From Desulfobacula sp. (lineage in GTDB: Bacteria; Desulfobacterota; Desulfobacteria; Desulfobacterales; Desulfobacteraceae): a DNA stretch of 40,498 nucleotides. Shown here piece after piece: positions 131 to 29,679 of this stretch. The stretch is from positions 1-40,498 of the forward strand of contig JAKIUJ010000014.1 of NCBI GenBank assembly GCA_021647625.1. The letters run 5' to 3'. Numbering within the stretch: the first letter of the stretch is position 1; every line of letters begins with the position of its first letter. A program made the position numbers and the translations under genes. The notes under the pieces were generated by a model, which saw nothing but the letters and a program-made list of their open reading frames with translations, was not told the origin of the DNA and made no database searches.

Positions 131-2428
131 ATGAAGGAAAATGAAATTAAAAATAGTATTAAAAACCGGGTTGAACCGGACGTACTTGAAAAAATCAGCC
201 AATCATTTTTTCAAACATTTGGAACGCGCAATCTGCTTGGTAACCTTTTTTTTAATTCTTTGGCAATAAAAAACCGGCAGATTGTATTTGAAGACCTGAT
301 TAACACCTGTGGTTACCAAAATAATATAGAAGGCTTTTTTCAAAATCTTACATCTAAAATTTTTACAGAAAAAAAAATCCAAATCACCATTAACAGGATC
401 ATCATTCCTCCCCTTTACCTGTATCATATATTAGAAGCCATCCTGCCCGGAAACCGCCTTTATGCCATTAAAAATATTGATGATCTGAAAAAAAATGCCC
501 GTGTTTTTGTCAACGATCCTGACAAATTGCAACAGGTCATGGATCAATTCCCGGTTCGTTTGTCGGACCATGTGATTCGTCAGGCTCTTGTTTCCTGCGG
601 GGTGGCAAAACAGTATTTGCCATTTATCGAAGAATTAGATCCCACAGGCGACACCATCACCTTTGACGGGCATTTTAAACACGGCGTGTTGGAGCAGATG
701 TATGAAAACCGGGTGATCTTTCTCTTGGATATGCATTGCCCTGTTTATTGCAGATTTTGTTTTCGAAAGCATAAAGCCACAAGAAAAGAAAAGACACCCG
801 GGCCATCCGATGTCATGGCTGCTGTGGACCATGTTAAGAATCATTCTGCCATCAAGGAGATTCTTATCACCGGTGGAGACCCCCTGCTCAATCGACCCAG
901 TCTTGATGCGGCCCTGAACGGCTTAAAGGACATCGCCCATGTGAATGTGATCCGGATTGCCACCCGGTCAATCGCTTATTATCCACAACTGTTTTTAAAA
1001 GGAAATCGGGAATATATTCACTATCTTATTGAACAAAATGACCAATTGAAAAGCCATGGAAAACGGATTGAAATCGGGATGCATTTTGTTCACCCGGACG
1101 AGGTATCGATCCAAAGTCTTGATATTATATCTGATCTTGTAAAAAATGGTGTCCAGGTCTATGTCCAGACACCCTTTTTAAATGGATTGAACACTGAAGG
1201 TAAAACCCTTGGCCGATTGTTCTCTCTGTTGAGAAACGCCGGTGCGAAAATTTATTATATTTTTACCCCATGCAGCCCCATTCACGGCACAAAACCATAT
1301 TGGGCACCGATTTCAAAGGCAATTAAAGCCATTGATTATCTGCGGGACAATTTTTCCGACCGTGTCGTGCCAAAACTTTGTACGGCCACACCCCTGGGAA
1401 AAATCGAATGGCATACCAGTGGCTGGGCTGTTCAGCAGGATGAAAAGGATTCTAATTTTATCTGGATCAGAACCCCGTATACAAAGGCGTATTATCAACA
1501 ATTTGTTTTAAGTAAAAAGGATATGCCTGTTTACCGGGAAAATGATGAAGGCACACTGGATGCAAGATTCAGGGTGGATATGGGGGATAAAGCATTATTT
1601 GCCGGCAACAGGCCAAGCACACAAAAGATTCAATTGACCCAATTAAACGATCGCTCTTTAATTATCTCAAATGTCCGTACGAAATTATTACAGACGTCCC
1701 CATTAAGGTCGTCTGTTGAGGATATTCCTATTGCCGGCATGTCACGGATACACAAAAGCTGTGTAGAGATGAGCATTCCGGTCAATGAAAAAGCACTTGA
1801 GTATTTGGCAAACCAATATTTAGCAGACCAAGGCTCTGTCAGCGATGTCATACTGCATTTGGATGATAAGGCGTTATTGGCACCAAAAAGACTTAAAGAC
1901 GTTCTTATACAAATAAAAAAAAGTCCACACATTACCTGTATCCGGTTGTGTTGCCGCCAGTTCAATGACCGTCCACATCTTATTACACCAGAGCTGATAC
2001 ATGTACTTACCGGTGTCTGTGATTTTTCAATTGCTCATCCGTTCAGGGTTGAGGTGGAAACCTGGGTGTTGCTGCCAAAAGATATTGAACAAACACATAA
2101 GGAACTTGCAGCAAAGATGATTAAAAAAGGAATTCACATATATGCCAATGCTCCTTTAATACAGGGCGTTAATGATGATCCGGATACCATCATCCAATTG
2201 GCCCATAGGCTGAGGCACACCGGCATCGAGTTTCATCACCTTTACGTTGGGGGGCTTGCCATACAAAAAAACTTTAATAGCGGTGAAACCATAGATCCAA
2301 AATTGTTGATCGATATCGCATCAAAGATCCGAACATCCTGTTCAGGGAGAGAAATTCCTTTATACATTATCCGGACTCCTGATGGGGATGAACAAATTGA
2401 CTTAACTGATTTTTTTAAATTTATGTAA
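131..2428 (+). CDS. KamA-family radical SAM protein with degenerate second KamA-like half
   Basis: The N-terminal ~500 residues resemble the lysine 2,3-aminomutase (KamA) family. A CxxxCxxC cluster motif at C203/C207/C210 would hold the radical SAM 4Fe-4S cluster, and an ITGGDPLL motif follows. K424 in a TPLGK context sits where lysine aminomutases have the PLP lysine, but the usual glycine-rich PGGGGK is not preserved, so aminomutase activity is uncertain. Residues ~540-765 align by eye with the first radical SAM barrel (SDVILHLDDKALL against KEILITGGDPLL; IYANAPLIQGVND against VYVQTPFLNGLNT) but lack the three cysteines. At 765 residues it is well above the ~400-470 usual for KamA. No strong ribosome binding site is visible before the ATG. 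The next gene lies 187 bp away, so it is probably transcribed alone. The family call is firm; the substrate is unknown. Confidence 0.85.
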   Translation: MKENEIKNSIKNRVEPDVLEKISQSFFQTFGTRNLLGNLFFNSLAIKNRQIVFEDLINTCGYQNNIEGFFQNLTSKIFTEKKIQITINRIIIPPLYLYHILEAILPGNRLYAIKNIDDLKKNARVFVNDPDKLQQVMDQFPVRLSDHVIRQALVSCGVAKQYLPFIEELDPTGDTITFDGHFKHGVLEQMYENRVIFLLDMHCPVYCRFCFRKHKATRKEKTPGPSDVMAAVDHVKNHSAIKEILITGGDPLLNRPSLDAALNGLKDIAHVNVIRIATRSIAYYPQLFLKGNREYIHYLIEQNDQLKSHGKRIEIGMHFVHPDEVSIQSLDIISDLVKNGVQVYVQTPFLNGLNTEGKTLGRLFSLLRNAGAKIYYIFTPCSPIHGTKPYWAPISKAIKAIDYLRDNFSDRVVPKLCTATPLGKIEWHTSGWAVQQDEKDSNFIWIRTPYTKAYYQQFVLSKKDMPVYRENDEGTLDARFRVDMGDKALFAGNRPSTQKIQLTQLNDRSLIISNVRTKLLQTSPLRSSVEDIPIAGMSRIHKSCVEMSIPVNEKALEYLANQYLADQGSVSDVILHLDDKALLAPKRLKDVLIQIKKSPHITCIRLCCRQFNDRPHLITPELIHVLTGVCDFSIAHPFRVEVETWVLLPKDIEQTHKELAAKMIKKGIHIYANAPLIQGVNDDPDTIIQLAHRLRHTGIEFHHLYVGGLAIQKNFNSGETIDPKLLIDIASKIRTSCSGREIPLYIIRTPDGDEQIDLTDFFKFM

Positions 2429-2615: not shown

Positions 2616-4703
2616 ATGAATATCAGCCGTAGACCATATGATGATAAAATAGTGAAATCTACCTGCGGGATGTGTTTTTCCTGCTGTGGCATCCTTGTTC
2701 ATGTTAAAAATAACAGAGTTATAAGAATATCCGGTGATCCGGACAGCCCGGTAAACACAGGAACGCTATGTTTAAAGGGAAAGTCAGCTTTGGAGATGCT
2801 CTACCACCCTCAAAGATTGATCTCACCTCTAAAAAGAGCTGGTGTGAGAGGAGAGGGGAAATGGGAGAAAATATCATGGGAAGAGGCTTTGGATATTACA
2901 GCAGCAAAGCTTCAGGCATCAAAATTGAAATTTGGCCCCGAAAGTGTTGCATTTCTCCAGGGAACGACCAAAGGCCTGATTGATGTCTATGTGGAAAGAC
3001 TTGTTAATGCCTTTGGGTCTCCGAATATTGCCACATCGGGACATGTCTGTTTCTTGCCCAGATTATTTGCCTCAAAAGTGACAAACGGATTTTTCCCCGT
3101 TCCCGATTACCAGGGGAACCCTGAGTATATCATCCTCTGGGGTGCTGATTTTTTAAACACCAGGATTGGTGAACATAAAAAAATAATCCATTTAAAAAAA
3201 AAGGGCACAAAAGTTATTGTCATTGATCCTGCAACACCTTTGATAGCCCGAAAGGCCGATCTGCATGCTAAAATCTGGCCTGGAACAGATCTTGTTCTTG
3301 CTTTGGGTATGATTTATATCATTATACAGGATCAATTATATGATAAAAAATTTGTAACAAAATATTGTATTGGTTTTGATGAACTAAAAGCCCATGTGGC
3401 GGACTATCCACTGGAAAAGGTATCAAGGTTAACCCATATCCCGGCAGAAGAAATAGACCGTATCGCAAAAATTTATGCCTCTGCCAAAAAGGCCGTGATT
3501 CAGTGGGGGAATGCTATCGAGCATGGTGTCAACAGCTTCCAAACGGCACGAGCGATCTCGATATTAAGAGCGATAACCGGAAAATTAGATAAAAAAGGGT
3601 GCGATATTGAACCCTTATATCCGGTGACCGGAGCAGGTATGGCAAATATAACGCTTAGCAACAGGATGACGGATGACTCTTGGGAAAAACGACTCTACAG
3701 TGGGACGCCAATGCTTCCCTGGTTTAAACGGGTTCTTCCGGCGGATATTGTTCACTCCCTTAACACAGCAGACCCTTACAAGCTTTCCTGTGTCTATATT
3801 ATGGGAGCCAATCCTCTTTTGACTTTCAGTAATGCTAAAAATACAGAGACTGCCTTGAAAAAGGCTGATTTCATAGCGGTTTCAGACAGATTTATGACAC
3901 CCACAGCACACCTTGCAGATATCATTCTTCCCCCATCAACATTTCTTGAATATGACAGCGTTATCGCACCGCCGTATTATGCCTACGCTGGAATTCAGCG
4001 CAAGGCTGTTGATATTAAGGGGTCTCTTTCAGACTATGACATAACCACCAGGCTTGCTGAAAGATTAGGCCTTGGACACGACTTTTACCCTGATATTTCT
4101 GACTTCTTTGACCTTGTATTGAATCCCTCCGGTCTAACATTCAAAGACTTCAAAAAATTGGGGGTTCTTTCAGGGAAAAGAAAAGAAAAAAAATATAGAG
4201 AAAACGGATTTAAAACACCAAGCGGGAAAGTTGAATTATTCTCCAGACAATTGAAAGATTCCGGTTTTTCTCCACTGCCTTCTTATATTGGAACCCATGA
4301 ACCTTCAAAGCAATACCCTGTTGTTCTTACCAGTGGAAAATCTTCATTTTTCAGGCATTCTGATAATCGTCAATTACCAACACTTAGAAAGGCACATCCG
4401 GAACCGGTTATAAAAATGAATCCGGTTACAGCAAAGTCCTTTCATATTAACGAGAATGACAATGTCTGTATCGAAACGGCAAATGGAAAGATTGTGCAAA
4501 AAGCAATGGTTACAAAGGACATTATGCCAGGTGTTGTGTTTGCTGATTTTGGCTGGTGGTTTCCTGAAGACGAAAACAGTCATAATACCTGGGAAACATC
4601 TAATATAAACATCCTGACCAGTGACACCCCGCCCTTCAGTCTTGAAACCGGGTCTGTTAATTTTCGAGGGATTATGTGCAAAATAGCACCTGTTAAAATT
4701 TAA
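2616..4703 (+). CDS. Molybdopterin (Mo/W-bisPGD) oxidoreductase, DMSO reductase superfamily
   Basis: This is a catalytic subunit of the DMSO-reductase superfamily. The N-terminus carries the 4Fe-4S motif C17-x2-C20-x3-C24 with the fourth ligand at C52 (LCLKGK). C145, in a GHVCFLPR context, is a good candidate for the protein ligand to Mo or W. The C-terminal region from ~residue 560 has the molybdopterin dinucleotide-binding fold (VVLTSGKSSFFRHSDNRQ). There is no twin-arginine leader, so it should be cytoplasmic. No electron-transfer Fe-S subunit or membrane anchor is adjacent, unlike phs/psr/dms operons. The single-subunit, cytoplasmic form resembles acetylene hydratase and its relatives, but the sequence does not fix the substrate. 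The ATG follows a GAGGAATTC stretch that can act as ribosome binding site. A terminator hairpin lies downstream at 4833. Confidence 0.88.
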   Translation: MNISRRPYDDKIVKSTCGMCFSCCGILVHVKNNRVIRISGDPDSPVNTGTLCLKGKSALEMLYHPQRLISPLKRAGVRGEGKWEKISWEEALDITAAKLQASKLKFGPESVAFLQGTTKGLIDVYVERLVNAFGSPNIATSGHVCFLPRLFASKVTNGFFPVPDYQGNPEYIILWGADFLNTRIGEHKKIIHLKKKGTKVIVIDPATPLIARKADLHAKIWPGTDLVLALGMIYIIIQDQLYDKKFVTKYCIGFDELKAHVADYPLEKVSRLTHIPAEEIDRIAKIYASAKKAVIQWGNAIEHGVNSFQTARAISILRAITGKLDKKGCDIEPLYPVTGAGMANITLSNRMTDDSWEKRLYSGTPMLPWFKRVLPADIVHSLNTADPYKLSCVYIMGANPLLTFSNAKNTETALKKADFIAVSDRFMTPTAHLADIILPPSTFLEYDSVIAPPYYAYAGIQRKAVDIKGSLSDYDITTRLAERLGLGHDFYPDISDFFDLVLNPSGLTFKDFKKLGVLSGKRKEKKYRENGFKTPSGKVELFSRQLKDSGFSPLPSYIGTHEPSKQYPVVLTSGKSSFFRHSDNRQLPTLRKAHPEPVIKMNPVTAKSFHINENDNVCIETANGKIVQKAMVTKDIMPGVVFADFGWWFPEDENSHNTWETSNINILTSDTPPFSLETGSVNFRGIMCKIAPVKI

Positions 4704-4832
4704 GGAATTTATATTGGGCGTATCTTTATAATCACTGATATCAATTTGACTTTATGCAGTGATTTTATGCTTGTCTATTTCTTTTTGATATGTTTTAATT
4801 TTGCTCGTTGTTTTAGTCCGACATGGAAACCC

Positions 4833-4855
4833 TGGCCCTCTGGGCCATGATTTTT
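4833..4855 (+). terminator. Intrinsic terminator after the molybdopterin oxidoreductase
   Basis: TGGCCC (4833-4838) pairs perfectly with GGGCCA (4842-4847) across a TCT loop, and is followed by TGATTTTT. It separates the oxidoreductase from the GntR regulator. Confidence 0.6.
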
Positions 4856-4929
4856 ACTTAACTATTGCATTTTTTATTTAAAAAAACGTGGAAAATAACT
4901 TCATTGTGTAAAAAATTATTAGAATAATA

Positions 4930-5580
4930 ATGACATCATCACAAAAAAATAATTTTGAGCGGGTCCTTGAAATTCTTGAGTATAAAATAATATCAGGCAT
5001 TCTGAAACCGCGGGAACGACTAATCGAGAGAGAGCTCACAGAAGAATACAAAATAACCACGGGAACGGTCAGAAATATTCTAAAAGAACTAACTGTTAAA
5101 AATCTCATTAACCATATGTCCAACCGGGGAGCTGTCGTTGCTGAACCCACCCCAAAAGAAGTAGAAGATATTTACCACACCCGGGTATTATTGGAAAGTT
5201 ATGCCATTGGCTTTGTTGTGGCGAATATGGATAAGATTCAATTAAAAAAAGTTGTAGCGCATGAGACTGCTTTTGAAAAATATTCAAAAGAAAAAAATTT
5301 ACGAGGAATTTTAAATCACAATCGATTGTTCCACCAATCAATGTTTGAAGTGTGTGGCAACCAGATTGCTTCAGACCTGATTGACCAACTAAGGAATCGT
5401 TCCCGAATCTGGTATCACTATATTCGCGGAAATGCTCAGCACCGCGAAAACAGCATCAAAGATCATCTGTCCATGATTGACTGCCTTGGTTCCAAAGATG
5501 CATCCAAGCTTAAAGAAATCAATACACGCCATTTAACTGTGGGATATACTAATTATATAGAACAATTAACGGCAATTTAA
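4930..5580 (+). CDS. GntR-family transcriptional regulator with FCD ligand-binding domain
   Basis: A DNA-binding regulator of the FadR (FCD) branch of the GntR family. Residues ~10-70 form the winged helix-turn-helix (RERLIERELTEEYKITTGTV then a wing ending NRGAVVAEP). Residues ~80-205 are all-helical FCD, with histidines in NHNRLFHQ, KDHLSMID and NTRHLTVG at the places where FCD domains bind a metal and a carboxylate ligand. The length of 216 residues is typical. It lies directly upstream of, and co-oriented with, the flavoprotein/transporter string. The perfect inverted repeat at 5679-5708, overlapping that string's promoter, is its likely operator, which would make it a local repressor relieved by the imported organic acid or a product of it. 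That regulatory link is inference. Confidence 0.88.
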   Translation: MTSSQKNNFERVLEILEYKIISGILKPRERLIERELTEEYKITTGTVRNILKELTVKNLINHMSNRGAVVAEPTPKEVEDIYHTRVLLESYAIGFVVANMDKIQLKKVVAHETAFEKYSKEKNLRGILNHNRLFHQSMFEVCGNQIASDLIDQLRNRSRIWYHYIRGNAQHRENSIKDHLSMIDCLGSKDASKLKEINTRHLTVGYTNYIEQLTAI

Positions 5581-5592
5581 CCCTTTGTTTCT

Positions 5593-5647
5593 AAAAGCTG
5601 TTTTTCCTTTGCCGGCAACCTTCTAACAGGCTTTTTAAAAAAGCATT
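5593..5647 (+). terminator. Probable terminator after the GntR regulator gene
   Basis: AAAAGC-TGTT (5593-5602) pairs with AACAGGCTTTT (5635-5645) with one bulged base; a GCCGGC palindrome lies in the loop, and a short T-run closes the right arm. It lies just before the next promoter. Confidence 0.4.
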
Positions 5648-5674
5648 GACAATCATTGGTCCTATTTCTATTAT
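5646..5674 (+). promoter_or_regulatory. Sigma-70-type promoter of the flavoprotein-transporter-sulfotransferase operon
   Basis: A perfect -35 TTGACA at 5646-5651 is followed after exactly 17 bp by TATTAT at 5669-5674 (5 of 6 to consensus). The predicted start site near 5681 lies inside the inverted repeat at 5679-5708. This is the best promoter match noticed in the window. Confidence 0.7.
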
Positions 5675-5678
5675 CCTG

Positions 5679-5708
5679 TAAATCATTAATAATATCATTA
5701 ATGATTTA
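5679..5708. promoter_or_regulatory. Perfect 12-bp inverted repeat, likely operator for the GntR/FCD regulator
   Basis: TAAATCATTAAT (5679-5690) and ATTAATGATTTA (5697-5708) are perfect inverted copies separated by AATATC. The repeat begins 4 bp after the -10 box and covers the predicted transcription start. Binding there would block initiation or escape, as expected of a repressor. The assignment to the adjacent regulator is inferred from position. Confidence 0.65.
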
Positions 5709-5785
5709 GTGTGGCAGATACGTGTGGTAATTTTGTTCTACTATACATCTGAATACAAAAATACTATCGGGTAAGGAGAGCTATA

Positions 5786-7423
5786 ATGATAGAGGAACGA
5801 ATCAAGGCCGATGTTTTGTGTATTGGAGGAGGGATAGCCGGTTTGATGGCTGCTATCCGGGCCGCAGAATTAGGTGCCAGTGTTGTTGTGGCTGAAAAGG
5901 GGAATGTACAATACAGTGGTTGCGGCCGCATGGGAAATGATCATTTTGAAACATACATCCCGAAAATTCACGGTGCGGACAAAGATGCATGGATTGAAGA
6001 GTTATTGAGAACCGCCAAAGGGGAGATACTGATTGGTAAAGACCTCCTTCGAGCCCAGTTCATGAAGGCGTACGATATTGTAAAATTGTGGGATGACTGG
6101 GGAATTCCCATGAAATACAAAGGCCGCTGGGAATTTTCAGGGCACTCTTTTCCGGATCATCCCATGACCCACATAAAATATGAAGGTCGTTTCCAGAAAA
6201 AAATATTGACAAGCCAGGCAAAAAAAAGAGGCGTTAAGATAATAAACCGAGTAATGATGCTTGATCTAATTCGGGATAACAACAAGGTTATTGGAGCTGT
6301 TGGCGTCCATACCAGAGAAGACAGATTATTGATATTTGAAGCAAAATCTGTTGTTCTGGGTACGGGTAAATGTTCACGACTGTATCCGCCGTTGACGCCC
6401 GGATGGCTGTCCAATGATCCCCATGGCGGTTCTCAATCCGGTGATGGACGGGCAATGGCTTATCGGGCTGGAGCAGAGCTTCAAAATCTAGAAATGCCTC
6501 AACGGCACATCGGTCCAAAATATTTTACCCGATTTGGTCAGGGGACCTGGGTTGGGGTTGTAAAAGACTGGTATGGGAAATCGGCTGGAACCTTTGTCGA
6601 TAAACCGGACCTCCGGTATGGCGATATGATTTGTGAAGTGAACAAACTGGCTCCTGAGCAATATACTCAGGCAGGCAAAGGCCCTCTTTACATGGACTGT
6701 ACCGATATGACGGACGAGGATCATGAGTACATGATGCACTGGATGAAGAATGAAGGGTATCCTGCCATGACAGAGTACATGGCGGCTGAAGGAATTGATC
6801 TCAGGAAGCATCCCATCGAATTTATGACCTATCCGATTCGGGGAGGCGGGCTTATCGTGGCTAATGAAAAAGCGGAAACTTCATTAAAAGGATTATATGC
6901 AGCCGGGGACGAATCCTATGGGGATATATCAGCCGCAGCAACTTTCGGATATCTGGGGGGAGAAAACGCAGCTATTTATGTTCAGAGCATTAAGCAGGTC
7001 GCCATTGAGAAAAACAACCCGGTAATTCAAAAAATACAAAAGCTGATCGATGACATCAAGGGGCATGAAAACGGACCGGACTGGGAGGAAACAAGCGTTG
7101 CCTTACAGCAAACCATGTCGGATTATGTAGGAAAGGTTCGAAATGAGTCCCTCCTTTTGCAAGGTCTTCAACATTTTAGAAGAATCAGGCAAAAAACGCG
7201 TGACACATTGATGGCCAAAAATCCACATGAAGTCGCACGGTGCCTGGAAGTGTTCAACCTGCTGGAAATTGGGGAACTTACTTTTTTAATGGCACTCAAC
7301 CGGAAAGAGACGCGGGGTCTTCATAACAGACCGGATTATCCGTTTACAGATCCACGGCTTAATCAGGCGCACATTATTCGAAAGAGCAAGAATGATAACA
7401 TTTTGGATTGGAAATCATATTAA
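5786..7423 (+). CDS. AprA-like FAD-dependent oxidoreductase (fumarate reductase/adenylylsulfate reductase alpha-like flavoprotein)
   Basis: The flavoprotein begins with an FAD dinucleotide-binding motif (GGGIAGLMAAIRAAELGA, residues ~12-30) and ends its FAD domain with the typical GLYAAGDESYGDISAAATF segment. Between these is a capping domain like that of fumarate reductase, aspartate oxidase and APS reductase alpha subunits. A helical C-terminal region (~430-545) follows. It has no signal peptide, so it acts in the cytoplasm. The ferredoxin gene starts 12 bp downstream, the same pairing as AprA with AprB, so electrons probably pass through that partner. A clear AAGGAGAG precedes the ATG. The genome's true AprA, if any, is not expected to sit in such a transporter context, so this is more likely a specialised paralogue reducing or oxidising an imported organic compound. 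Confidence 0.85.
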   Translation: MIEERIKADVLCIGGGIAGLMAAIRAAELGASVVVAEKGNVQYSGCGRMGNDHFETYIPKIHGADKDAWIEELLRTAKGEILIGKDLLRAQFMKAYDIVKLWDDWGIPMKYKGRWEFSGHSFPDHPMTHIKYEGRFQKKILTSQAKKRGVKIINRVMMLDLIRDNNKVIGAVGVHTREDRLLIFEAKSVVLGTGKCSRLYPPLTPGWLSNDPHGGSQSGDGRAMAYRAGAELQNLEMPQRHIGPKYFTRFGQGTWVGVVKDWYGKSAGTFVDKPDLRYGDMICEVNKLAPEQYTQAGKGPLYMDCTDMTDEDHEYMMHWMKNEGYPAMTEYMAAEGIDLRKHPIEFMTYPIRGGGLIVANEKAETSLKGLYAAGDESYGDISAAATFGYLGGENAAIYVQSIKQVAIEKNNPVIQKIQKLIDDIKGHENGPDWEETSVALQQTMSDYVGKVRNESLLLQGLQHFRRIRQKTRDTLMAKNPHEVARCLEVFNLLEIGELTFLMALNRKETRGLHNRPDYPFTDPRLNQAHIIRKSKNDNILDWKSY

Positions 7424-7435
7424 AAAGGAAAAATT

Positions 7436-7666
7436 ATGCCGCCGATAATTAATTCAGATGACTGTATAAAATGCAACACATGTGTTGAGATATGCTCGGA
7501 AGATGTTTTTTACGGATCAAAAAAAGGAGAGGTCCCTCATGTGGCCTACCCTAAAGAGTGTGTTCATTTCAATGGTTGTGTGTCGGTATGCCCGGTCCCC
7601 GGTGCCATACGGCTTCGAATTCCCTTACCCATGCAATTGGTATATAAGGAGGAAGAAACAAGCTAA
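7436..7666 (+). CDS. Small ferredoxin, partner of the AprA-like flavoprotein
   Basis: A 76-residue ferredoxin-like protein. The first motif is complete (C10-x2-C13-x2-C16-x3-C20). The second is unusual: C42-x5-C48-x3-C52-P, lacking the usual middle cysteine of CxxCxxCxxxCP. By standard ferredoxin topology cluster I (C10, C13, C16, C52) is complete and cluster II would have only C20, C42 and C48, so it may be a 3Fe-4S cluster, use another ligand, or be absent. It starts 12 bp after the flavoprotein and is much shorter than AprB of dissimilatory APS reductase. It probably carries electrons to or from the flavoprotein. Confidence 0.8.
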   Translation: MPPIINSDDCIKCNTCVEICSEDVFYGSKKGEVPHVAYPKECVHFNGCVSVCPVPGAIRLRIPLPMQLVYKEEETS

Positions 7667-7718
7667 ATCACGGTTAACACATTTAAGTAATTCAATGTTT
7701 CATTTAACAAAAAGGAAA

Positions 7719-8672
7719 ATGAAAATGAGAAATCTATTAGTCGCTATCATAGTCGCATGTATGATGATGGTACCCGTTTTTGCCCAGGCACAGGACTGGT
7801 CACCCAAGAGCTCAATCAAGCTCCAAATTGGTTTTGGTGCAGGGGGTTCCACAGATATTATGGGACGTTTGATTGCATCGGGGGTTGAAGAAATGACAGG
7901 ATGGAATATCGTTGTGGAAAACAAACCCGGCGGTGGCGGTGTTGCCATGTTTTCTACTCTCATGAATAAAAAACCCGATGGTTTAACTTTGGGGGTGGGT
8001 GTGAATGTACCCATATTGTTGAATCTGGCTCTGCGAGGAGATAAACTGCCTTTTAAAATTGACAGTTTTGATTATATTGCAACAATTATCAAAGGGGAGA
8101 ATGCGCTCGTGGTTAAGGCAGATGCACCCTATGACAATTTTAAAGAATTTATAGCATACGCCAAAACTAAGGATGCTATTGCAGTGGGATACGATGCTAA
8201 GCCTCAACAAATGATAATAAATGCCGTCAGTAAGCAGTCCGGGATAAAATTTAAACTTATCAAACACAAAAGCGGTGCAGAACAGATTCAAAGTCTTCTT
8301 GGTGGTCATATCACCCTGGCCTGCCTTGCCGGCGCACACATTAAATATCTTAAGAGCGGTGATCTGAAAATGATCGGGGTTTATAATAAAGATCGTCATT
8401 CGTACGCACTTAACGTAAAGACCTTGATTGAGGAAGGCTACAATTATTATATTGATCCTTATTTTTATATCGCAGCACCTAAGGGATTGCCTGGTAATAT
8501 TAAATCTGCACTGGCCAAGGCGTTTGACAAAGCCATATATTCTGAAAAAGTAAAATTAGCCCTTTATAATACATTAAAAGCCAAACCTTATAATTTGGGA
8601 TCAGACGGAACTAAGGAAATGATGACGAATGGGGAAACAGATGTTAAAGCTCTCATAGAAGCTGGTAAATAA
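7719..8672 (+). CDS. Tripartite tricarboxylate transporter substrate-binding protein (TctC/Bug family)
   Basis: A periplasmic solute-binding protein of the TTT family. The open frame extends upstream to 7482 over the ferredoxin gene, but the signal peptide (RNLLVAIIVACMMMVPVF, cleaved near AQAQ-D) and the AAAAAGGA ribosome binding site place the start at ATG 7719 or 7725. The mature protein opens with the family hallmark KLQIGFGAGGSTDIMGRLIA and has VVENKPGGGGV shortly after. TTT binding proteins capture tri- or dicarboxylates, aromatic acids and similar anions; the ligand here is not readable. The genes for the small and large membrane components follow directly in C-B-A order. Confidence 0.88.
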   Translation: MKMRNLLVAIIVACMMMVPVFAQAQDWSPKSSIKLQIGFGAGGSTDIMGRLIASGVEEMTGWNIVVENKPGGGGVAMFSTLMNKKPDGLTLGVGVNVPILLNLALRGDKLPFKIDSFDYIATIIKGENALVVKADAPYDNFKEFIAYAKTKDAIAVGYDAKPQQMIINAVSKQSGIKFKLIKHKSGAEQIQSLLGGHITLACLAGAHIKYLKSGDLKMIGVYNKDRHSYALNVKTLIEEGYNYYIDPYFYIAAPKGLPGNIKSALAKAFDKAIYSEKVKLALYNTLKAKPYNLGSDGTKEMMTNGETDVKALIEAGK

Positions 8673-8743
8673 AACCTTCATTAAAGATGGCCCCGACGGT
8701 TTGACCGCTTTGGGTCATCTCACCCATAGTAAGGATACTTAAA

Positions 8744-9163
8744 ATGACGCTGAATCGCCTGTCAGGGCTTGTCGTAGCCATCATGGGACTTAGCCTGCTG
8801 TTCTGGATAATACCACATCAAACTGAAATTGTAGATTCCGGCTGGCTAAAGCCGGCAACCCTGCCGAAAATCACTTCAATTTTTATTATCATTGCGGGCA
8901 TGTTACATTTTATTTTTCCTACTGGAAAAGCCGAGTTCGATATTGAGTTTTCCCTGCGCGTTGGCCTTTTTTTTGTGATCAGTACCATTGGGCTATACCT
9001 GATGAACCTTATTGGATTTATTATGGCAACACCGATACTGATATCGGTGATTATGGCAATGATTAAAGAACGACGCCCGTTTTGGCTTATCGCAGGAATT
9101 TTGCTGTTACCGGCATCGATCTGGTTCTGTGTTGATTTTTTGCTGAACAAGCCACTTCCCTAA
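8744..9163 (+). CDS. Tripartite tricarboxylate transporter small membrane subunit (TctB family)
   Basis: A 139-residue membrane protein with about four predicted hydrophobic segments (residues ~9-25, ~45-60, ~75-105 in two blocks, ~113-132) and the FP.......F-like spacing seen in TctB proteins. Family identity rests mainly on size, hydrophobicity and position between the TctC- and TctA-type genes. It pairs with TctA to form the secondary transporter. It begins 71 bp after the binding protein and ends 20 bp before the large subunit, so all are co-transcribed. Confidence 0.8.
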   Translation: MTLNRLSGLVVAIMGLSLLFWIIPHQTEIVDSGWLKPATLPKITSIFIIIAGMLHFIFPTGKAEFDIEFSLRVGLFFVISTIGLYLMNLIGFIMATPILISVIMAMIKERRPFWLIAGILLLPASIWFCVDFLLNKPLP

Positions 9164-9183
9164 CAAAAAAGGTCCTTATTATT

Positions 9184-10683
9184 ATGATTGATTTTGCTAT
9201 TATACTTGGGGGTTTTGCTGACGCACTAACCCTATACAACCTTTTTTTTGTGCTTTGTGGTGTTGTGCTTGGCCAATTTGTAGGCGCTGTACCAGGGGTA
9301 GGCCCTGTGACTGCCATGGCCATTGCAATCCCATTTACCTTTGCACTTGATCCTCTCCCGGCCATCGCCTTTCTGATAGGCGTCAACAAGGGTGGATTGG
9401 TTGGAGGTGCTGTTCCCGCCATCTTGATTAATACTCCTGGAACACCCGATGCCGCTGCCACTACGCTGGATGGCTATCCAATGACAAAGAACGGGAAACC
9501 TGAAAAAGCGTTAAAAATGGCACTCTATTCATCAGTGACAGGTGATGCTTTCAGTGATGTCGTACTGATTACAGTCGCCCCTCTGATTGCTATGGTCGCC
9601 TTGAAAATGGGTCCCATTGAAATATTTGCCTTGATGGTCTTTGCCTTCTCTATTATTGCAGGCCTTGTTGGAGACTCTATGTCCAAGGGGATTGCTGCTG
9701 CTGCATTCGGACTGTTTTTTGCGACCGTGGGACTGGACCCGGAAAACAGCACTCCCCGTTTTATATTTGGACACTTTGAATTGTATGACGGCCTGCCGCT
9801 TGTCTCTGTGGCTCTGGGCATGCTGGCTGTTCCCGAAATTTTTCGCAGGCTTTCAATGATACGTGGCAAGAGCATGGCCGCCGTTACGATTTCTAAAACA
9901 CAAAAAAAAGAAGACCGTCGAGTTAGCTGGGCCGAATACTGGTCCTGCCGTTATACTATATTGAGAGGGTCAGTGATTGGCACCATTTTAGGCGCTATCC
10001 CCGGGCTTGATTCATCGGCTGCAGCATTTATGAGTTATGCAACTGCCAAGCAGACATCCAGAGATCCGGACAGTTTTGGGAAGGGAAATATTCATGGCAT
10101 TGCAGCGACAGAATCGGCCAACAGCGCTGTTTCAGGGGCCAATTTAATCCCAATGCTGACGCTGGGGATACCTGGTAATATTGCGGCCGCTCTTATTATT
10201 ACTGCTTTAATGATACATGGGGTCCAACCCGGGCCACTTCTTTTCCATGAACAGGGACGCCTGATTTATGGCCTTTTCGGTACATTGCTTATGGCAAACA
10301 TTTTGAACCTTTTTACCGGACTTTTAGGTTTGCGTCTCTGGGCAAAAATAATTGGAGCGCCGGAATCATTTATATTTTCAACAGCGCTTTTACTTTGTAT
10401 CGTTGGTGTTTACATTTCAACCGGCGGGTTGTTTGGTGTGGGGGTGATGTTCTTTTTTGCCCTATTGGGATACTTTATGAACGCATTTGGGTATTCCATT
10501 ATTGTGTTTGTTATTGCTTTTTTTCTTGGGGAAAGATTCGAGTTGTCCTTATCTCAATCACTTAATATTCTTGATGGCGATTACGCTATATTGTTGACTC
10601 GTCCGGTGGCACTTGTTTTATTCGGCCTTGCAATTGTTTCTGTGTATTGGTTTGGGATTCGCACAAATAAAAAAAAGGAGTAA
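9184..10683 (+). CDS. Tripartite tricarboxylate transporter large permease (TctA family)
   Basis: A 499-residue polytopic permease. It shows the TctA signatures GAVPGVGPVTAMAIAIPFTF near residue 37 and the related GAIPGLDSSAAAFMSYATAK in the second half, reflecting the internal repeat of this family, plus LTLGIPGNIAAAL. About 11-12 hydrophobic segments are visible. It is the transport pore that takes ligand from the TctC-type protein, driven by an ion gradient. The arylsulfotransferase-like gene starts 3 bp after its stop, indicating tight co-translation. Confidence 0.9.
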   Translation: MIDFAIILGGFADALTLYNLFFVLCGVVLGQFVGAVPGVGPVTAMAIAIPFTFALDPLPAIAFLIGVNKGGLVGGAVPAILINTPGTPDAAATTLDGYPMTKNGKPEKALKMALYSSVTGDAFSDVVLITVAPLIAMVALKMGPIEIFALMVFAFSIIAGLVGDSMSKGIAAAAFGLFFATVGLDPENSTPRFIFGHFELYDGLPLVSVALGMLAVPEIFRRLSMIRGKSMAAVTISKTQKKEDRRVSWAEYWSCRYTILRGSVIGTILGAIPGLDSSAAAFMSYATAKQTSRDPDSFGKGNIHGIAATESANSAVSGANLIPMLTLGIPGNIAAALIITALMIHGVQPGPLLFHEQGRLIYGLFGTLLMANILNLFTGLLGLRLWAKIIGAPESFIFSTALLLCIVGVYISTGGLFGVGVMFFFALLGYFMNAFGYSIIVFVIAFFLGERFELSLSQSLNILDGDYAILLTRPVALVLFGLAIVSVYWFGIRTNKKKE

Positions 10684-10686
10684 GCA

Positions 10687-12123
10687 ATGGGTTATCCAAC
10701 CATCTACCCGACAGGGGTTACCATCTACAACCCGGAAAAATGCTGGAACGGGTATACTGTTTTTCAAGCCAAAGATATTGGCGCCACTATCATTGATATG
10801 AATGGTACTGTTGTCAGGCAAATAAAAAACCTTCACGGATTTCCTAATAAATTACTTCCGGGCGGGTACCTGATGGGGCACTCAGGTCGTCGAAATGAAA
10901 AATTTGGTTATCAAGATCAAAAAGACCTGGTCCAGGTTGACTGGGATGGCAATATCGTCTGGACGTTTGATCAATGGGAATTTATTGAAGACCCTGGTAA
11001 AAAACCGTGCTGGATGGCCCGGCAGCACCACGATTACCAAAGGGAAGGAAATTGTGTAGGGTACTATGTCCCTGGCATGGAGCCGGAAACAGACAAGGGT
11101 AATACGCTTATTCTTCTCCATAAAAATATATATAATCCAAAAATCACAGATAAGCTGCTTTGTGATGATGTTATGATAGAAGTTGACTGGGAAGGAAATA
11201 TTATCTGGGAGTGGCGTTGCAGTGATCATTTTGATGAATTAAATTTCAGTGAAGAAGCTAAAAATACCTTGTACCGTAATCCCAATTTTCATCCGGAGGT
11301 CGGTGAGGGAGTGGCTGACTGGATGCATATCAATTCCATGTCGGTGCTGGGACCTAATCAATGGTTTGATAATGGTGATAAGCGTTTTCATCCGGATAAT
11401 ATTATCTGGGGTGGACGAATTACCAATATCATGGCAATCACCGATAAAAAATCAGGGAAAATTGTCTGGCAGGTCGGGCCGGATTATAATACGAGTGATG
11501 CTTTAAAAAAACTGGGTTGGATAATTGGACAGCATCATAACCACATGATACCCAGAGGACTTCCCGGTGAGGGCAATATTCTTGTTTTTGATAATGGTGG
11601 CTGGGCCGGCTATGGTGCGCCTAATCCAGGTTCTCCCAACGGGATGCATAATGCTCAAAGAGATTGTTCCCGGGTGCTTGAATTTAATCCGATAACGCTT
11701 GAAATTGTCTGGCAATATACACCGGTTGAAGCGGGTTTTGTGCCTCTGGCAGATAATTATAAATTCTATAGCGGCTATATCAGCAGCGCCCAGCGGTTGC
11801 CCAATGGGAATACCTTAATTACAGAGGGAGCCGATGGCCGTTTGTTCGAAGTGACATCTGATTATGAAATCGTCTGGGAATATGTGAGTCCCTATTTTGC
11901 AAAAAAATCCGATACAAACTATCTTTATCGAGCGTATCGTTACCCGTATGATTATATCCCTCAATTAACGCTTCCAAAAGAAAATGCGGTTCCAAGGATT
12001 CGCCGGTCAACTTTCAGAGTGCCGGGCAACAAAGAATGCCGGCAACAGAATGTAACAACCTTTGAAGCAGGAGAGTCTTACGACACTGAGGCTCAGGTTT
12101 GCATTATATCAAATAAAAATTAG
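10687..12123 (+). CDS. Arylsulfotransferase (ASST)-like beta-propeller protein, no signal peptide
   Basis: A 478-residue protein of the arylsulfate sulfotransferase family. Propeller-blade repeats are seen as D-x-x-G-x-I/V-V/I-W: VDWDGNIVWTFDQWE, VDWEGNIIWEWRCSDHFDE, KKSGKIVWQVGPDY, FNPITLEIVWQYTP, VTSDYEIVWEYV, with NGNTLITEG and EGNILVFDNGG strands. Histidine-rich turns (RQHHDYQ, GQHHNHMIPRG) are candidate catalytic positions; classical ASST uses a histidine that becomes sulfated. Unlike E. coli-type ASST, which is periplasmic, this one has no leader and begins MGYPTIYPTG, so it should be cytoplasmic. It starts 3 bp after the permease. It may move a sulfuryl group from or to the imported compound; other propeller enzymes remain possible. 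Confidence 0.75.
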   Translation: MGYPTIYPTGVTIYNPEKCWNGYTVFQAKDIGATIIDMNGTVVRQIKNLHGFPNKLLPGGYLMGHSGRRNEKFGYQDQKDLVQVDWDGNIVWTFDQWEFIEDPGKKPCWMARQHHDYQREGNCVGYYVPGMEPETDKGNTLILLHKNIYNPKITDKLLCDDVMIEVDWEGNIIWEWRCSDHFDELNFSEEAKNTLYRNPNFHPEVGEGVADWMHINSMSVLGPNQWFDNGDKRFHPDNIIWGGRITNIMAITDKKSGKIVWQVGPDYNTSDALKKLGWIIGQHHNHMIPRGLPGEGNILVFDNGGWAGYGAPNPGSPNGMHNAQRDCSRVLEFNPITLEIVWQYTPVEAGFVPLADNYKFYSGYISSAQRLPNGNTLITEGADGRLFEVTSDYEIVWEYVSPYFAKKSDTNYLYRAYRYPYDYIPQLTLPKENAVPRIRRSTFRVPGNKECRQQNVTTFEAGESYDTEAQVCIISNKN

Positions 12124-12188
12124 GAATATGATACATCCCCATTTAGAAAGGTGTAAAAGGATAATAAAAAAGGAGATACCCAAATAAT

Positions 12189-12637
12189 ATGCCCTATTCA
12201 GTTTATCCAACCGGTACAACAATTTACTTTCCGGATAAAGCGTATAATAGTTATGTGCTTTTTGACGGGAGGGACGGACGTTCTCACATCATCGATATGA
12301 ATGGAAACGTGGTTAATTCATGGCCGTATACAGGATTTCCCGTGGAAATGATCGATCCGGCTATTAATGGAGGCAAGACCGGTCATATCATCTGTCAAAA
12401 AGAACCGGAAATATATTCATGCGAAACGCTTTTAATAACAGACTGGGATTCAAATGTAATTTGGGAATGGGGAAAAAAAGGCCCCTGGAGGCAAAGCAAG
12501 GCAGAACCATGACCTTTCACGCTTGCCCAATGGCAATATGCTGGTTATCACTTTTATCGATAGTTTAATCCCTGAAGTTTCAGATGATCCCGAAAGGGTT
12601 GCCGGGAGCAGGGAATGTAATGGTATTTGATAGATAA
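12189..12637 (+). pseudogene. Decayed second copy of the arylsulfotransferase-like gene
   Basis: The first 107 codons (to the stop at 12510-12512) match the start of the preceding gene: YPTGTTIYFPDKAYNSYVLF against YPTGVTIYNPEKCWNGYTVF, and IIDMNGNVV against IIDMNGTVV. Homology then continues in the +1 frame (HDLSRLPNGNMLVIT from 12508) and again in the +2 frame (GLPGAGNVMVFD, ~12596-12631, matching GLPGEGNILVFD), where the spacing shows a large internal deletion. A strong ribosome binding site (AAAGGAG) still precedes the ATG, so a truncated 107-residue product might be made. It records a tandem duplication that later broke down. Confidence 0.75.
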
Positions 12638-12772
12638 GACAGAGGTGTGTTTGTTTAACTTTTATGAATAAGTATGTCTATAATCCCATAAAAAAAGCAA
12701 CCCAATTGTCTAAAAAGATACTCCCGAGTGTTATATAAAACGGATTGATAAAATTAAAATATTGGGAATATT

Positions 12773-13372
12773 ATGGTGCAGATAAACAAGATGTTAATAG
12801 AACTGGCTGAGAAGCGAAAAACAACACGAAAATTCACACAGGAAAAACCAAGCTTAAAAAAAATACTTGATGTATTGGAAATAGCACGCCACGCACCTTC
12901 AGGGTCTAATAAACAACCCTGGCGATTCATTGTGATTAACGATTCTAAGGTGAAAGCCTTGATTCGTGAGGCTTCAGAAAAAGGGGAGAAAAAATTTTAT
13001 AAGACAATTAGTAAAAAGCGGAGGCTCGCTTATAAAGCCATGGGCAATACCTGGCAAAAACCTATGCTCGAGAAGGCCCCTATTCTTGTTGCAGTAATCT
13101 CTGATACCAAAGCGCCTAATTATAGACCTTCTGTGTGGCTTTCCATAGGATACATAATTCTTTCCATTGAAGCCGCCGGACTCAGTACCGTCACCTATAC
13201 ACCTTCGGACCCCGACATTGTCAGAAAAGCACTCGAGATACCTGATTTTTTTCAAATTGAAACAATTCTGCCTATTGGTTTTTCTGCTGATCCAAAAAGA
13301 AAAAAACCACGAAAATCGCTGAATGAGCTGGTTTTCAAAAATCAATGGAACAAGCTACTCGCCAAACAATAG
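12773..13372 (+). CDS. Nitroreductase-family protein
   Basis: A 199-residue FMN-dependent nitroreductase-fold protein. The N-terminal FMN phosphate-binding signature is clear (RKTTRKFTQEKPS, then EIARHAPSGSNKQPWRFIVI), and LSIGYIILSIEAAGLSTVTYTP is the usual helix near the flavin. The C-terminus (PIGFSADPKRKKPRKSLNELV) is typical of small family members. It lies about 135 bp after the decayed sulfotransferase copy and is convergent with the flavodoxin-like gene 18 bp away. Such enzymes reduce nitroaromatics, quinones or other electron-poor compounds; the physiological substrate is not evident. Confidence 0.85.
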   Translation: MVQINKMLIELAEKRKTTRKFTQEKPSLKKILDVLEIARHAPSGSNKQPWRFIVINDSKVKALIREASEKGEKKFYKTISKKRRLAYKAMGNTWQKPMLEKAPILVAVISDTKAPNYRPSVWLSIGYIILSIEAAGLSTVTYTPSDPDIVRKALEIPDFFQIETILPIGFSADPKRKKPRKSLNELVFKNQWNKLLAKQ

Positions 13373-13390: not shown

Positions 13391-13957
13391 TTATGAAACA
13401 ATCTTTCTGGCAAATTCAACAGCCTGCTGCTGAACTAAATCTCCTAAAGCATCAGGTGTTGTGCATGACCCAATAAAAAGTTCCCCTGCATTAATAGCCT
13501 TGTGATATTTTTGCATGCGCCCAAAAGCCGCAACCATGCCTTCCGCATTATCTTTATAGGGCCCGGCACCTGTCGTAATGAGTGCTTGACGCTGACCATC
13601 AACAAGGGATGCGTGGTCCGGTTGGTTGGCATTGGTATAAAGACTATATGTTCTGTCAATTACCGCCTTTATTTGGGCAGAAAACCCCCAGAAATATAAA
13701 GGTGAACTAAAAATGACCAATTGTGAATCAATCATTTTTTCCAAAATTTCAGGTACATCATCTTTTTGTACACACCCAATGGTATCAATTTTTTCTTTGC
13801 ACTTACCACAACCCATACACCCTTTTAAATTTTTAGAATGAAGATAAATATTATCAACATCATGACCCAGGACGGTCAATTCATCTTCTACCCAATTTAA
13901 TATTCTGGCTGTATTTCCTTTCTTTCTAGCACTTCCCTGTAATATAGTGGTTTTCAT
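13391..13957 (-). CDS. NAD(P)H-dependent FMN reductase / iron-sulfur flavoprotein-like flavodoxin-fold protein
   Basis: A 188-residue flavodoxin-fold protein of the NADPH-dependent FMN reductase family. The FMN phosphate loop is GSARKKGNTARILNW (residues ~8-22). A GCMGCGKCKEK motif with a further cysteine (IGCVQKDD) resembles the compact cysteine motif of iron-sulfur flavoproteins that can hold a 4Fe-4S cluster. The SSPLYFWGFSAQIKAVIDRT segment is the second FMN-contacting loop. It is cytoplasmic and convergent with the nitroreductase, so the two are not co-transcribed, but their pairing suggests shared redox function. Confidence 0.85.
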   Translation of the reverse strand: MKTTILQGSARKKGNTARILNWVEDELTVLGHDVDNIYLHSKNLKGCMGCGKCKEKIDTIGCVQKDDVPEILEKMIDSQLVIFSSPLYFWGFSAQIKAVIDRTYSLYTNANQPDHASLVDGQRQALITTGAGPYKDNAEGMVAAFGRMQKYHKAINAGELFIGSCTTPDALGDLVQQQAVEFARKIVS

Positions 13958-25231: not shown

Positions 25232-25327
25232 ATGATTTTTTTAAGTTGCCAAGCCTTTGGGGGATGGGTTAAGTTGGGGCGATATTTAACTGAATTGTTC
25301 TTTAATAGGGGTGGTTTGAAATTGTGA
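25232..25327 (+). CDS. Possible 31-codon leader ORF translationally coupled to cobU
   Basis: An ATG at 25232 preceded by AAAAGGAG at ideal spacing opens a 31-residue frame (MIFLSCQAFGG, then WVKLGRYLTELFF, ending GLKL). Its TGA at 25325-25327 overlaps the GTG start of cobU in a GTGA arrangement, the classic sign of translational coupling. The cobU GTG has only a weaker G-rich stretch of its own. It may be a leader peptide or just a translated leader; no homology is recognised. Confidence 0.4.
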   Translation: MIFLSCQAFGGWVKLGRYLTELFFNRGGLKL

Positions 25328-25863
25328 AACATGAAGTGACATTTGTAATCGGTGGGTGCAGGAGTGGTAAAAGCTCCTATGCACTGAATCAGGCCGACAA
25401 AATAGCAGGGAAAAATAAATATTTTATCGCCACATCTGTGCCCACGGATATGGAAATGGAAGAACGGGTACACACCCATCAAAAAGAACGGGGTGAGGAC
25501 TGGAACACGATAGAGGAGCCTGTCCTGATTCAAAAGACAATAAGCCGGCTTTCCCAACATGCCGATGTGATTCTAGTGGACTGCCTGACCTTGTGGCTGT
25601 CAAATTTAATGCTGGCATCAACATCGAAAAAAGACCTTGAGATTGCGGTTTCCCACTTGGAGGATGCTCTTAAAAAAAGTGTGTGCCCCATTTTTCTGGT
25701 TTCAAATGAGGTGGGGTTTGGCATTGTACCTGAAAACAAACTGGCCCGGAAGTTCCGGGATTTTGCCGGGTTGGTTAATCAAAGGGTGGCAGCGACAGCA
25801 GACCGTGTTGTTATAACGGTGGCAGGGATTGATGTCCAGATAAAGCCAAGGGGTATCGTTTAA
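25324..25863 (+). CDS. cobU: Adenosylcobinamide kinase / adenosylcobinamide-phosphate guanylyltransferase
   Basis: Phosphorylates adenosylcobinamide and then transfers GMP to it, giving AdoCbi-GDP, the activated corrinoid for nucleotide-loop assembly. The P-loop GGCRSGKS lies at residues 10-17, followed by YFIATSVPTDMEMEERVHTHQKERG, which includes the region holding the guanylylated histidine, and VDCLTLWLSNLM, the Walker-B-like segment. The ending VVITVAGIDVQIKP is typical. The length of 179 is normal. It starts with GTG and leads the cobamide operon; the radical SAM gene starts 20 bp downstream. No cobalamin riboswitch was recognised upstream. Confidence 0.93.
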   Translation: MKHEVTFVIGGCRSGKSSYALNQADKIAGKNKYFIATSVPTDMEMEERVHTHQKERGEDWNTIEEPVLIQKTISRLSQHADVILVDCLTLWLSNLMLASTSKKDLEIAVSHLEDALKKSVCPIFLVSNEVGFGIVPENKLARKFRDFAGLVNQRVAATADRVVITVAGIDVQIKPRGIV

Positions 25864-25883
25864 AAAAGTTTAAGGATTAAATC

Positions 25884-27583: not shown

Positions 27584-27613
27584 ATACATATAGGGTGTAA
27601 AGGAAAAAAATGT

Positions 27614-29663: not shown

Positions 29664-29679
29664 CGGCAAATCCAAAGCG

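Follow-up and report, generated by a model that had tools for sequence, protein, structure and literature searches.

How does a sulfate-reducing bacterium handle an organic sulfate when the enzyme expected to strip its sulfur group is encoded together with an importer and a redox pair? This question is raised by a six-gene operon in a 40,498-nt stretch of DNA from Desulfobacula sp. (hereafter the window, meaning the whole stretch analyzed; contig C223 of a Desulfobacula-like genome of 4.27 Mb in 332 contigs, 92.9% complete), in which genes for a flavoprotein and a ferredoxin are followed by those for the three subunits of a tripartite tricarboxylate transporter (TTT) and for an arylsulfotransferase-like protein (ASST). 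DsrA (589 bits) and, elsewhere in the genome, a bona fide AprA (949 bits) both score over their cut-offs, so that by gene content this genome reduces sulfate and sulfite. The operon probably imports a sulfated organic acid and removes its sulfur group inside the cell. The six-gene operon itself is a new variant, and the finding worth following is the clade to which its ASST belongs: because relatives of this stripping enzyme are fused to, or encoded beside, thiol redox proteins, our analyses suggest an undescribed, thiol-linked route from organic sulfates straight to sulfite.

The arylsulfotransferase clade and its thiol partners

The window ASST matches PF05935 with 83.2 bits (cut-off, 24.2) and also passes PF14269. 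Its predicted model has a mean predicted local distance difference test score (pLDDT) of 86.3, and Foldseek places it closest to 9kf6 and 9kf4 (the Streptomyces sulfotransferase Cpz4, E 4e-17), followed by the Escherichia coli ASST 3ets (1e-9); the template modeling scores are moderate (0.48-0.55), and the propeller fold of EcAST and Cpz4 is recovered. The active-site residues of EcAST are His252, His356, Asn358, Arg374, and His436 (PMC13426309). Because the sequence profile search did not extend to 3ELQ, these residues were mapped via Cpz4, the Pfam match, and spacing, which gives H114/H115, H214, N216, R244, and H283 as their counterparts in the window and makes H283 the candidate nucleophile. 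H114, H115, H214, N216, R244, and H283 are invariant in all 84 alignment rows of the clade, and among 18 distant ASSTs N216, R244, and H283 occur in every row and H114, H115, and H214 in 17.

The clade was sampled by one pattern-based scan of genome contigs that gave 79 named loci (the best 80 of 185 confirmed stretches), with relatives at 59-76% identity in Desulfobacterota, SAR324, Bacillota, Enterobacterales, Cetobacterium, and others. From 145 matches, 140 rows (the window being included twice) were left in the alignment after removal of sequences shorter than 330 aa and exact duplicates, and 129 rows entered the tree after removal of those below 300 bits. Some of the loci recorded under G handles repeat named ones (L112 and L132 belong to L032's genome, and L003 and L136 match L038); therefore, clade counts use the 79 named loci alone. 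In the tree, which was built by a quick method and has several weak forks, the window falls into one group (support 99) with L035, L033, L034, and the redoxin-linked L032/L112. A single SAR324 bin (PL23b_bin.69, ~7.8 Mb), which may be mixed, holds five contigs (L033, L034, L048, L050, and L056) that each carry clade ASST genes together with different importers.

The clade appears to be cytoplasmic: by a crude measure, N-terminal hydropathy stays below the leader threshold in 81/84 clade rows, the remaining 3 starting at the same native methionine, whereas it exceeds the threshold in 13/18 distant ASSTs. Two cysteines are also characteristic, namely a tail cysteine, C472, present in 82/84 clade rows, and C178, present in 75/84, neither of which is found in any of the 18 distant ASSTs. 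Residues 468-478 of the model have pLDDT values below 50, making the stretch around C472 a candidate mobile acceptor tail.

At 20 of the 79 loci, the ASST reading frame continues into a thioredoxin domain, for which PF00085 scored over its cut-off in all four cases tested and in which a CxxC motif is present in 21/21 fused proteins. A separate gene for a CxxC redoxin stands at the ASST locus in 26/79 cases (25 by profile, plus L095, which is cut by its contig end), and for 11 further loci a redoxin is encoded elsewhere in the same genome or bin (L034, L050, and L056 share the bin of L033, and L057 that of L041). This redoxin consists of an N-terminal NrdH-like domain (CxxC in 25/25) and a barrel that resembles radical S-adenosylmethionine (SAM) enzymes in profile and model; a CxxxCxxC motif was found in 0/25 of these barrels, which would be of a radical-SAM type that is cluster-less. 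Lipoamide dehydrogenase is encoded near the ASST in 10/79 loci, each time with the redoxin, and GcvH in 12/79, the redoxin also being there in 11; at these counts, a requirement of all clade members for GcvH and lipoamide dehydrogenase was dropped.

The link between redoxin and ASST also appears in genome sets assembled by taxonomy. The redoxin occurs in 10/345 genomes of the phylum and 14/86 of the family, and every one of them encodes a close ASST (Fisher's exact test by genome, p 5e-17 for the phylum, where the ASST-positive class, 13/345 at E <= 1e-200, was fixed after the scores had been seen, and 1.5e-13 for the family). Because genomes are not independent, the genus-level values of 1.4e-7 and 0.003, respectively, are fairer. 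With the looser threshold of E <= 1e-20, 24/345 genomes count as ASST-positive and all 10 redoxin genomes are still among them. By coordinates, none of the 15 redoxin genes in the family set is more than 2 kb from an ASST, and none of the 10 in the phylum set more than 10.4 kb; the ASST occurs without the redoxin in 3/17 family genomes (G000, G362, and G383). When 47 genomes were searched for the redoxin, 8/8 positive controls were recovered; of the genomes lacking it next to the ASST, 7/29 encode it at another site, and it was found in 0/10 of the fusion genomes searched (L090 not included), as expected if fusion and redoxin are alternatives. In the tree, redoxin-linked members fall on several branches, and the fused members need 2 state changes.

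These associations bear on what the enzyme might do with the group that it removes. A classical phenol-to-phenol ASST, working inside the cell with thioredoxin or redoxin merely keeping its cysteines reduced, would be in line with the phenol acceptors used by known ASSTs (PMC13426309), with conserved cysteines that could be structural, and with 22/79 loci at which our searches found neither a fusion nor a redoxin. However, phenol-to-phenol transfer would bring no net gain from an imported organosulfate, and it leaves unexplained both a dedicated redoxin accompanied by lipoamide dehydrogenase and the presence of an ASST in each of the 24 genomes, from both sets, that have the redoxin; we regard it as improbable. 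The enzyme could also be a plain sulfatase, transferring the group to water, with importers that just deliver sulfur or carbon, and a fungal PAPS-independent enzyme does show sulfatase behavior if no acceptor is supplied (PMC13426309; PAPS, 3'-phosphoadenosine 5'-phosphosulfate). Because the thioredoxin fusions, the CxxC redoxin, and the lipoamide dehydrogenase would all go unexplained, we give this the least credence of the explanations considered here and hold it to be very improbable. The reading that we prefer is transfer of the sulfuryl group to a thiol.

Importers and the proposed transfer to a thiol

An importer of the TTT, TRAP, DASS, or ABC type lies within 6 kb of the ASST gene in 62/79 loci, with TTT at 14, TRAP at 8, DASS at 14, and NMT1/SsuC-type ABC at 27 of the 79 (TTT, DASS, and NMT1, as well as GcvH and lipoamide dehydrogenase, were labeled by Pfam or NCBIfam, and TRAP, TAXI, and SsuC-type by inspection). 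Importer genes account for 103 of the 501 open reading frames within 3 kb of the ASST versus 2 of 318 at 6-9 kb, a comparison that favors near matches, its reference importers having come partly from near neighbors. That the importer varies while the enzyme stays the same argues for delivery of the ASST's substrate by these importers. The window's own TTT adjoins an ASST in a Desulfosarcina metagenome-assembled genome (MAG; L035), where TctA is 80% and the ASST 70% identical and the flavoprotein is absent; a remoter relative of the TTT (48%) is found near the ASST in L050. An earlier note, made from the window alone, had proposed organic anion import beside sulfuryl chemistry, and these loci bear that proposal out.

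The donor is hinted at by Moorella sulfitireducens (L036:622-14127), in which the gene run that contains ASST and redoxin also encodes a pyrogallol-transhydroxylase-like protein (PF21423, E 5e-33), as well as an Fe-S protein, a ferredoxin (42% identical to that of the window), a TRAP-type binding protein, an amidohydrolase_2 protein, and a distant flavoprotein (27% identical to the window's and, like it, with PRK08275 as best NCBIfam model, below cut-off). This run, which looks like one for the use of sulfated phenolics, points to phenolic sulfates as donors and offers one loose second case of an ASST with flavoprotein and ferredoxin. In a Bacillota MAG, a flavoprotein (31% identical to the window's; L044:564-2309) and an Fe-S protein lie ~7.7 kb from a clade ASST.

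Three precedents led us to the proposed reaction. A sulfo-histidine step has been described for EcAST (PMC13426309), NrdH and Grx1 release sulfite from S-sulfocysteine in E. coli (PMC3528435), and in plant adenosine 5'-phosphosulfate (APS) reductase a fused thioredoxin-fold domain frees sulfite from a thiosulfonate intermediate (PMC6827007). By analogy, the TTT would import an organic compound carrying both a sulfate and a carboxyl group, most likely an aryl sulfate, and the cytoplasmic ASST would take its SO3 group onto His283 and pass it to a thiol, either that of the tail Cys472 or that of a thioredoxin-type protein, or both; a second thiol would then free sulfite, for a net R-O-SO3(-) + dithiol -> R-OH + sulfite + disulfide. 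Sulfite made in this way could be respired through DsrAB in this sulfate reducer with no ATP spent on activating sulfate, and across the clade it would feed sulfite respiration or assimilation. The window's ASST would have to rely on a general thioredoxin, since its genome lacks a dedicated redoxin, and the flavoprotein and ferredoxin would handle the remaining desulfated acid. The model as a whole, from TTT import and transfer to a thiol through sulfite release to the action of the flavoprotein, is offered tentatively, at a little short of an even chance.

Make-up of the operon and the place of the flavoprotein

The layout given in the earlier note, namely one regulator gene, a strong promoter with an overlapping operator (both predicted), and six co-oriented, tightly spaced genes, is found as described, all on the plus strand; the same interval also contains a broken second ASST copy that the note did not name (Table 1). 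The six genes are separated by 12, 52, 71, 20, and 3 nt, the last being the distance from TctA to the ASST, and TctA, TctB, and TctC, encoded together and all over cut-off (PF01970, PF07331, and PF03401), make up a tripartite tricarboxylate transporter set. The predicted promoter has the top score among 29 promoter-like sites in positions 4700-12800; because shuffled sequence gives 21.2 +/- 4.9 such sites, its score is notable and the number of sites is not. The palindrome starts 4 nt past the -10 box, thus covering the expected transcription start, and is likely the operator of the GntR protein; its core, AAATCATTAAT-N6-ATTAATGATTT, is present at a single site in the window and in 0/100 shuffles (<=3 mismatches allowed). 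A 5.4-kb contig of G408 (L127) carries GntR (68%), flavoprotein (81%), ferredoxin (85%), and TctC (63%) in the order of the window until the contig ends, and its flavoprotein gene is preceded by a TTGACA box and by inverted repeats of the ATTAATGAT type. The molybdopterin oxidoreductase upstream of the regulator is possibly part of the flavoprotein module, outside the transcription unit.

Close relatives of the flavoprotein were found in nine genomes including the window's own, in searches of 86 family (E <= 1e-60), 345 phylum (E <= 1e-80), and 340 order genomes (E <= 1e-100), sets that overlap and each contain the own genome. A ferredoxin 53-85% identical to the window's accompanies the flavoprotein in all eight other genomes, adjoining its gene in six and lying 0.7 kb off in G168 and 3.8 kb off in G396. 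An importer of the TTT, TAXI, or TRAP type is clear at 6/8 of these loci, with a weak contig-end fragment in G516 and none recognized in G480; amidohydrolase_2-type genes are near in 4/8 (2 by Pfam and 2 by 29% similarity to those), and relatives of the molybdopterin oxidoreductase (53%, 44%, and 28%) in 3/8. The ASST stands beside this module in 1/9 genomes, that of the window, and the only ASST match of G408 is on a different contig from its flavoprotein. The operon joins two modules, a flavoprotein-ferredoxin pair that usually has an importer and an ASST with an importer. The exact order flavoprotein-ferredoxin-TctCBA-ASST was not seen outside the own genome in these flavoprotein searches, and the six-gene order was dropped as a conserved operon, there being no second instance in the family, phylum, and order sets. 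The earlier note had named an order unique to one strain as grounds against its proposal; by that standard, its claim that the gene combination makes up a pathway is weakened, and the link between importer and ASST stands.

Does the flavoprotein act on the sulfuryl group? The possibility that the flavoprotein-ferredoxin pair is a sulfuryl reductase like APS reductase, one that either accepts SO3 from the ASST or splits the organosulfate on its own, draws on its nearest solved relatives, MtPAPSR alpha (8a8o, E 3.5e-61 by profile) and AprA, and on its being encoded in the ASST's unit. The flavoprotein nevertheless reaches 74.7-86 bits against the aprA equivalog model (cut-off, 641.75), its best NCBIfam model being PRK08275, below cut-off; the columns aligned to AprA Asn74 and Trp234 (A. 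fulgidus numbering), which we take to be the APS-binding residues, vary among six flavoprotein relatives; and the aprB model is absent from the 23 NCBIfam matches of the window ferredoxin at E <= 0.001. In addition, the flavoprotein lacks a neighboring ASST in 8/8 other genomes, with amidohydrolase_2 genes near it in four, and the genome has its true AprA elsewhere. A role as APS or PAPS reductase was rejected on score and residues; as regards the interpretation in the earlier note, an AprA-like role in sulfuryl reduction is not supported, and sulfuryl reduction by this pair in general seems to us very unlikely. Most likely, the pair acts on the desulfated organic acid, in organic acid catabolism, and not on the sulfuryl group. 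The coupling of flavin and Fe-S redox chemistry to sulfuryl handling, part of that note, is supported in part: the genes do stand together in the own genome and loosely in Moorella, but the flavoprotein has no ASST beside it in the eight other genomes. The earlier pathway idea was partly right but assigned the sulfuryl chemistry to the wrong redox partner; the partner that travels with the ASST clade is a thiol protein, which is not visible from a single window.

The operon could instead hold two unrelated modules in one transcription unit, GntR-flavoprotein-ferredoxin-TTT, which would serve a plain carboxylic acid, and an ASST left over from a decaying tandem pair. The eight flavoprotein-ferredoxin loci without an ASST are consistent with this, as are the one locus (L127) at which this pair is arranged with GntR and TctC as in the window, the absence of a dedicated redoxin from the genome, and the broken second copy, in which the N-terminal 107 residues are followed by a stop and by short fragments in other frames (41% identical to an ASST over 95 residues, and 82% over 17 residues for a piece in another frame). 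Two intact tandem ASST genes (L132) are present in G393, a genome of the window's genus. On the other hand, the window's TTT lies beside an ASST without the flavoprotein in L035, ASST, flavoprotein, and ferredoxin occur together in L036, and the remaining ASST is intact, has all the clade residues, and starts 3 nt after TctA. We consider two unrelated modules rather unlikely, and less so than the other alternatives.

Several observations weigh against transfer to a thiol in a joint operon, the reading that we prefer. The role of H283 as nucleophile was assigned by alignment and spacing, with EcAST outside the alignment, and C472 is missing in 2/84 clade rows. There are also the 22 loci with neither fusion nor redoxin, a type to which the window's own genome belongs, 0 dedicated redoxins having been found in it at E <= 1e-15 at 92.9% completeness. 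The flavoprotein link consists of one genome and one loose analogue, and no ASST lies beside the flavoprotein in 8/8 other genomes, three of them on short contigs (G408, 5.4 kb; G516, 4.3 kb; G168, 8.9 kb). Finally, because the second ASST copy is decayed, the locus may be losing function.

Elsewhere in the window, the lysine-2,3-aminomutase-like protein has 765 aa, of which Pfam finds one radical SAM stretch only, the second half being similar by eye. A nitroreductase and a reductase gene lie directly downstream of the operon, and genes assigned by eye to late cobalamin synthesis form a run that is followed by a barrel protein. A protein kinase fused to an FGE-sulfatase-type domain adjoins a phosphatase-like gene.

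Table 1. Positions of the operon, its control elements, and other features. Positions refer to the window unless a locus is given
Feature	Position	Strand	Basis
GntR/FCD-type transcriptional regulator	4930-5580	+	PF00392 and PF07729 over cut-off
Sigma-70-type promoter TTGACA-17-TATTAT (predicted)	5646-5674	+	11/12 consensus matches
Palindrome, likely operator of the GntR protein	5679-5708		15-nt arms, 93% complementary
Flavin adenine dinucleotide (FAD) flavoprotein, FrdA/AprA superfamily, 545 aa	5786-7423	+	PF00890, PF02910
Ferredoxin, two [4Fe-4S] motifs, 76 aa	7436-7666	+	PF14697 over cut-off
TctC-type periplasmic binding protein	7719-8672	+	PF03401 E 7e-34
TctB-type small membrane subunit	8744-9163	+	PF07331 E 4e-10
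TctA-type large membrane subunit	9184-10683	+	PF01970 E 2e-136
Arylsulfotransferase-like protein (ASST), apparently cytoplasmic, 478 aa	10687-12123	+	PF05935 E 2e-23
Decayed second ASST copy	12189 to ~12631	+	
Molybdopterin oxidoreductase upstream of the regulator	2616-4703	+	PF00384, PF01568, PF04879
Redoxin-barrel genes (plus 23 further loci)	L032:13314-14156, L039:13388-14242		
Lysine-2,3-aminomutase-like radical SAM protein	131-2428	+	
Nitroreductase	12773-13372	+	PF00881
NADPH-dependent FMN reductase	13391-13957	-	PF03358
Late cobalamin synthesis gene run	25324-30495	+	by eye
AP_endonuc_2 barrel protein	29680-30495	+	
Phosphatase-like gene	35489-36205		by eye
Ser/Thr protein kinase fused to FGE-sulfatase-type domain	36192-38138	-	PF03781
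C-terminal transposase remnant	38618-39160	+	by eye; no Pfam match at E <= 0.001

Known systems and biological meaning

The bacterial PAPS-independent ASSTs (EcAST, 3ELQ/3ETS; DhAST; and Cpz4, 9kf4/9kf6) share with the window's clade the Pfam family, the propeller fold, and, by alignment, the catalytic His/Asn/Arg set. The clade differs from them in its lack of a leader (by the crude test), in C472 and C178, in its thioredoxin fusions or redoxin neighbors, and in its linkage to importers, whereas the enterobacterial and E. coli ASSTs have been described as periplasmic and Dsb-linked (PMC13426309). In plant APS reductase (APR), and in bacterial CysH with thioredoxin, a sulfuryl group is likewise held on cysteine and sulfite is freed by a fused or separate thioredoxin-fold protein (PMC6827007), as we propose here; the ASST, on the other hand, has an unrelated fold, its donor would be an organosulfate rather than APS or PAPS, and a histidine intermediate would come first. 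A flavoprotein with a small ferredoxin, as in the window, is also found in AprAB and in archaeal PAPS reductase (8a8o), which include the nearest solved relatives of the flavoprotein but from which it departs in its score, its non-conserved APS-binding residues, and the presence of a true AprA elsewhere in the genome. The SftR regulon of Pseudomonas putida S-313, which reportedly serves sulfate ester assimilation under a LysR regulator, together with ABC uptake, resembles the enterobacterial ASST loci. In Bilophila and its relatives, isethionate sulfite-lyase brings organic sulfur into Dsr respiration as sulfite (PMC6386719, PMC6453916), as in our proposal, but by C-S cleavage with a glycyl radical enzyme, whereas O-S cleavage by sulfuryl transfer is proposed here.

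Neither a thiol-accepting ASST nor an ASST-thioredoxin fusion was found among the open-access titles and abstract beginnings listed, and the word cysteine is absent, by word search, from a 2024 paper on five ASSTs (PMC11576661). A 2026 review describes the physiological role of bacterial arylsulfotransferases as poorly understood (PMC13426309). A cytoplasmic ASST clade joined to thioredoxin offers a direct, testable role, the production of sulfite from organic sulfates. We put forward, again at a little short of an even chance, that anaerobes and enterobacteria share an undescribed organosulfate:thiol sulfuryl transfer with release of sulfite. The enzyme would belong to the cytoplasmic ASST clade and work with a fused thioredoxin or a separate NrdH-like redoxin, sometimes with recharge by lipoyl-GcvH and lipoamide dehydrogenase; aryl sulfates would then be electron acceptors for sulfite respirers, to which the window would add import and breakdown of the carbon skeleton. 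Sulfate activation costs ATP. If the proposal is true, sulfite respirers would spare this ATP, and the turnover of aryl sulfates would be linked to the formation of sulfide, a link that would extend to guts because Mailhella and Desulfovibrio bins carry the clade ASST.

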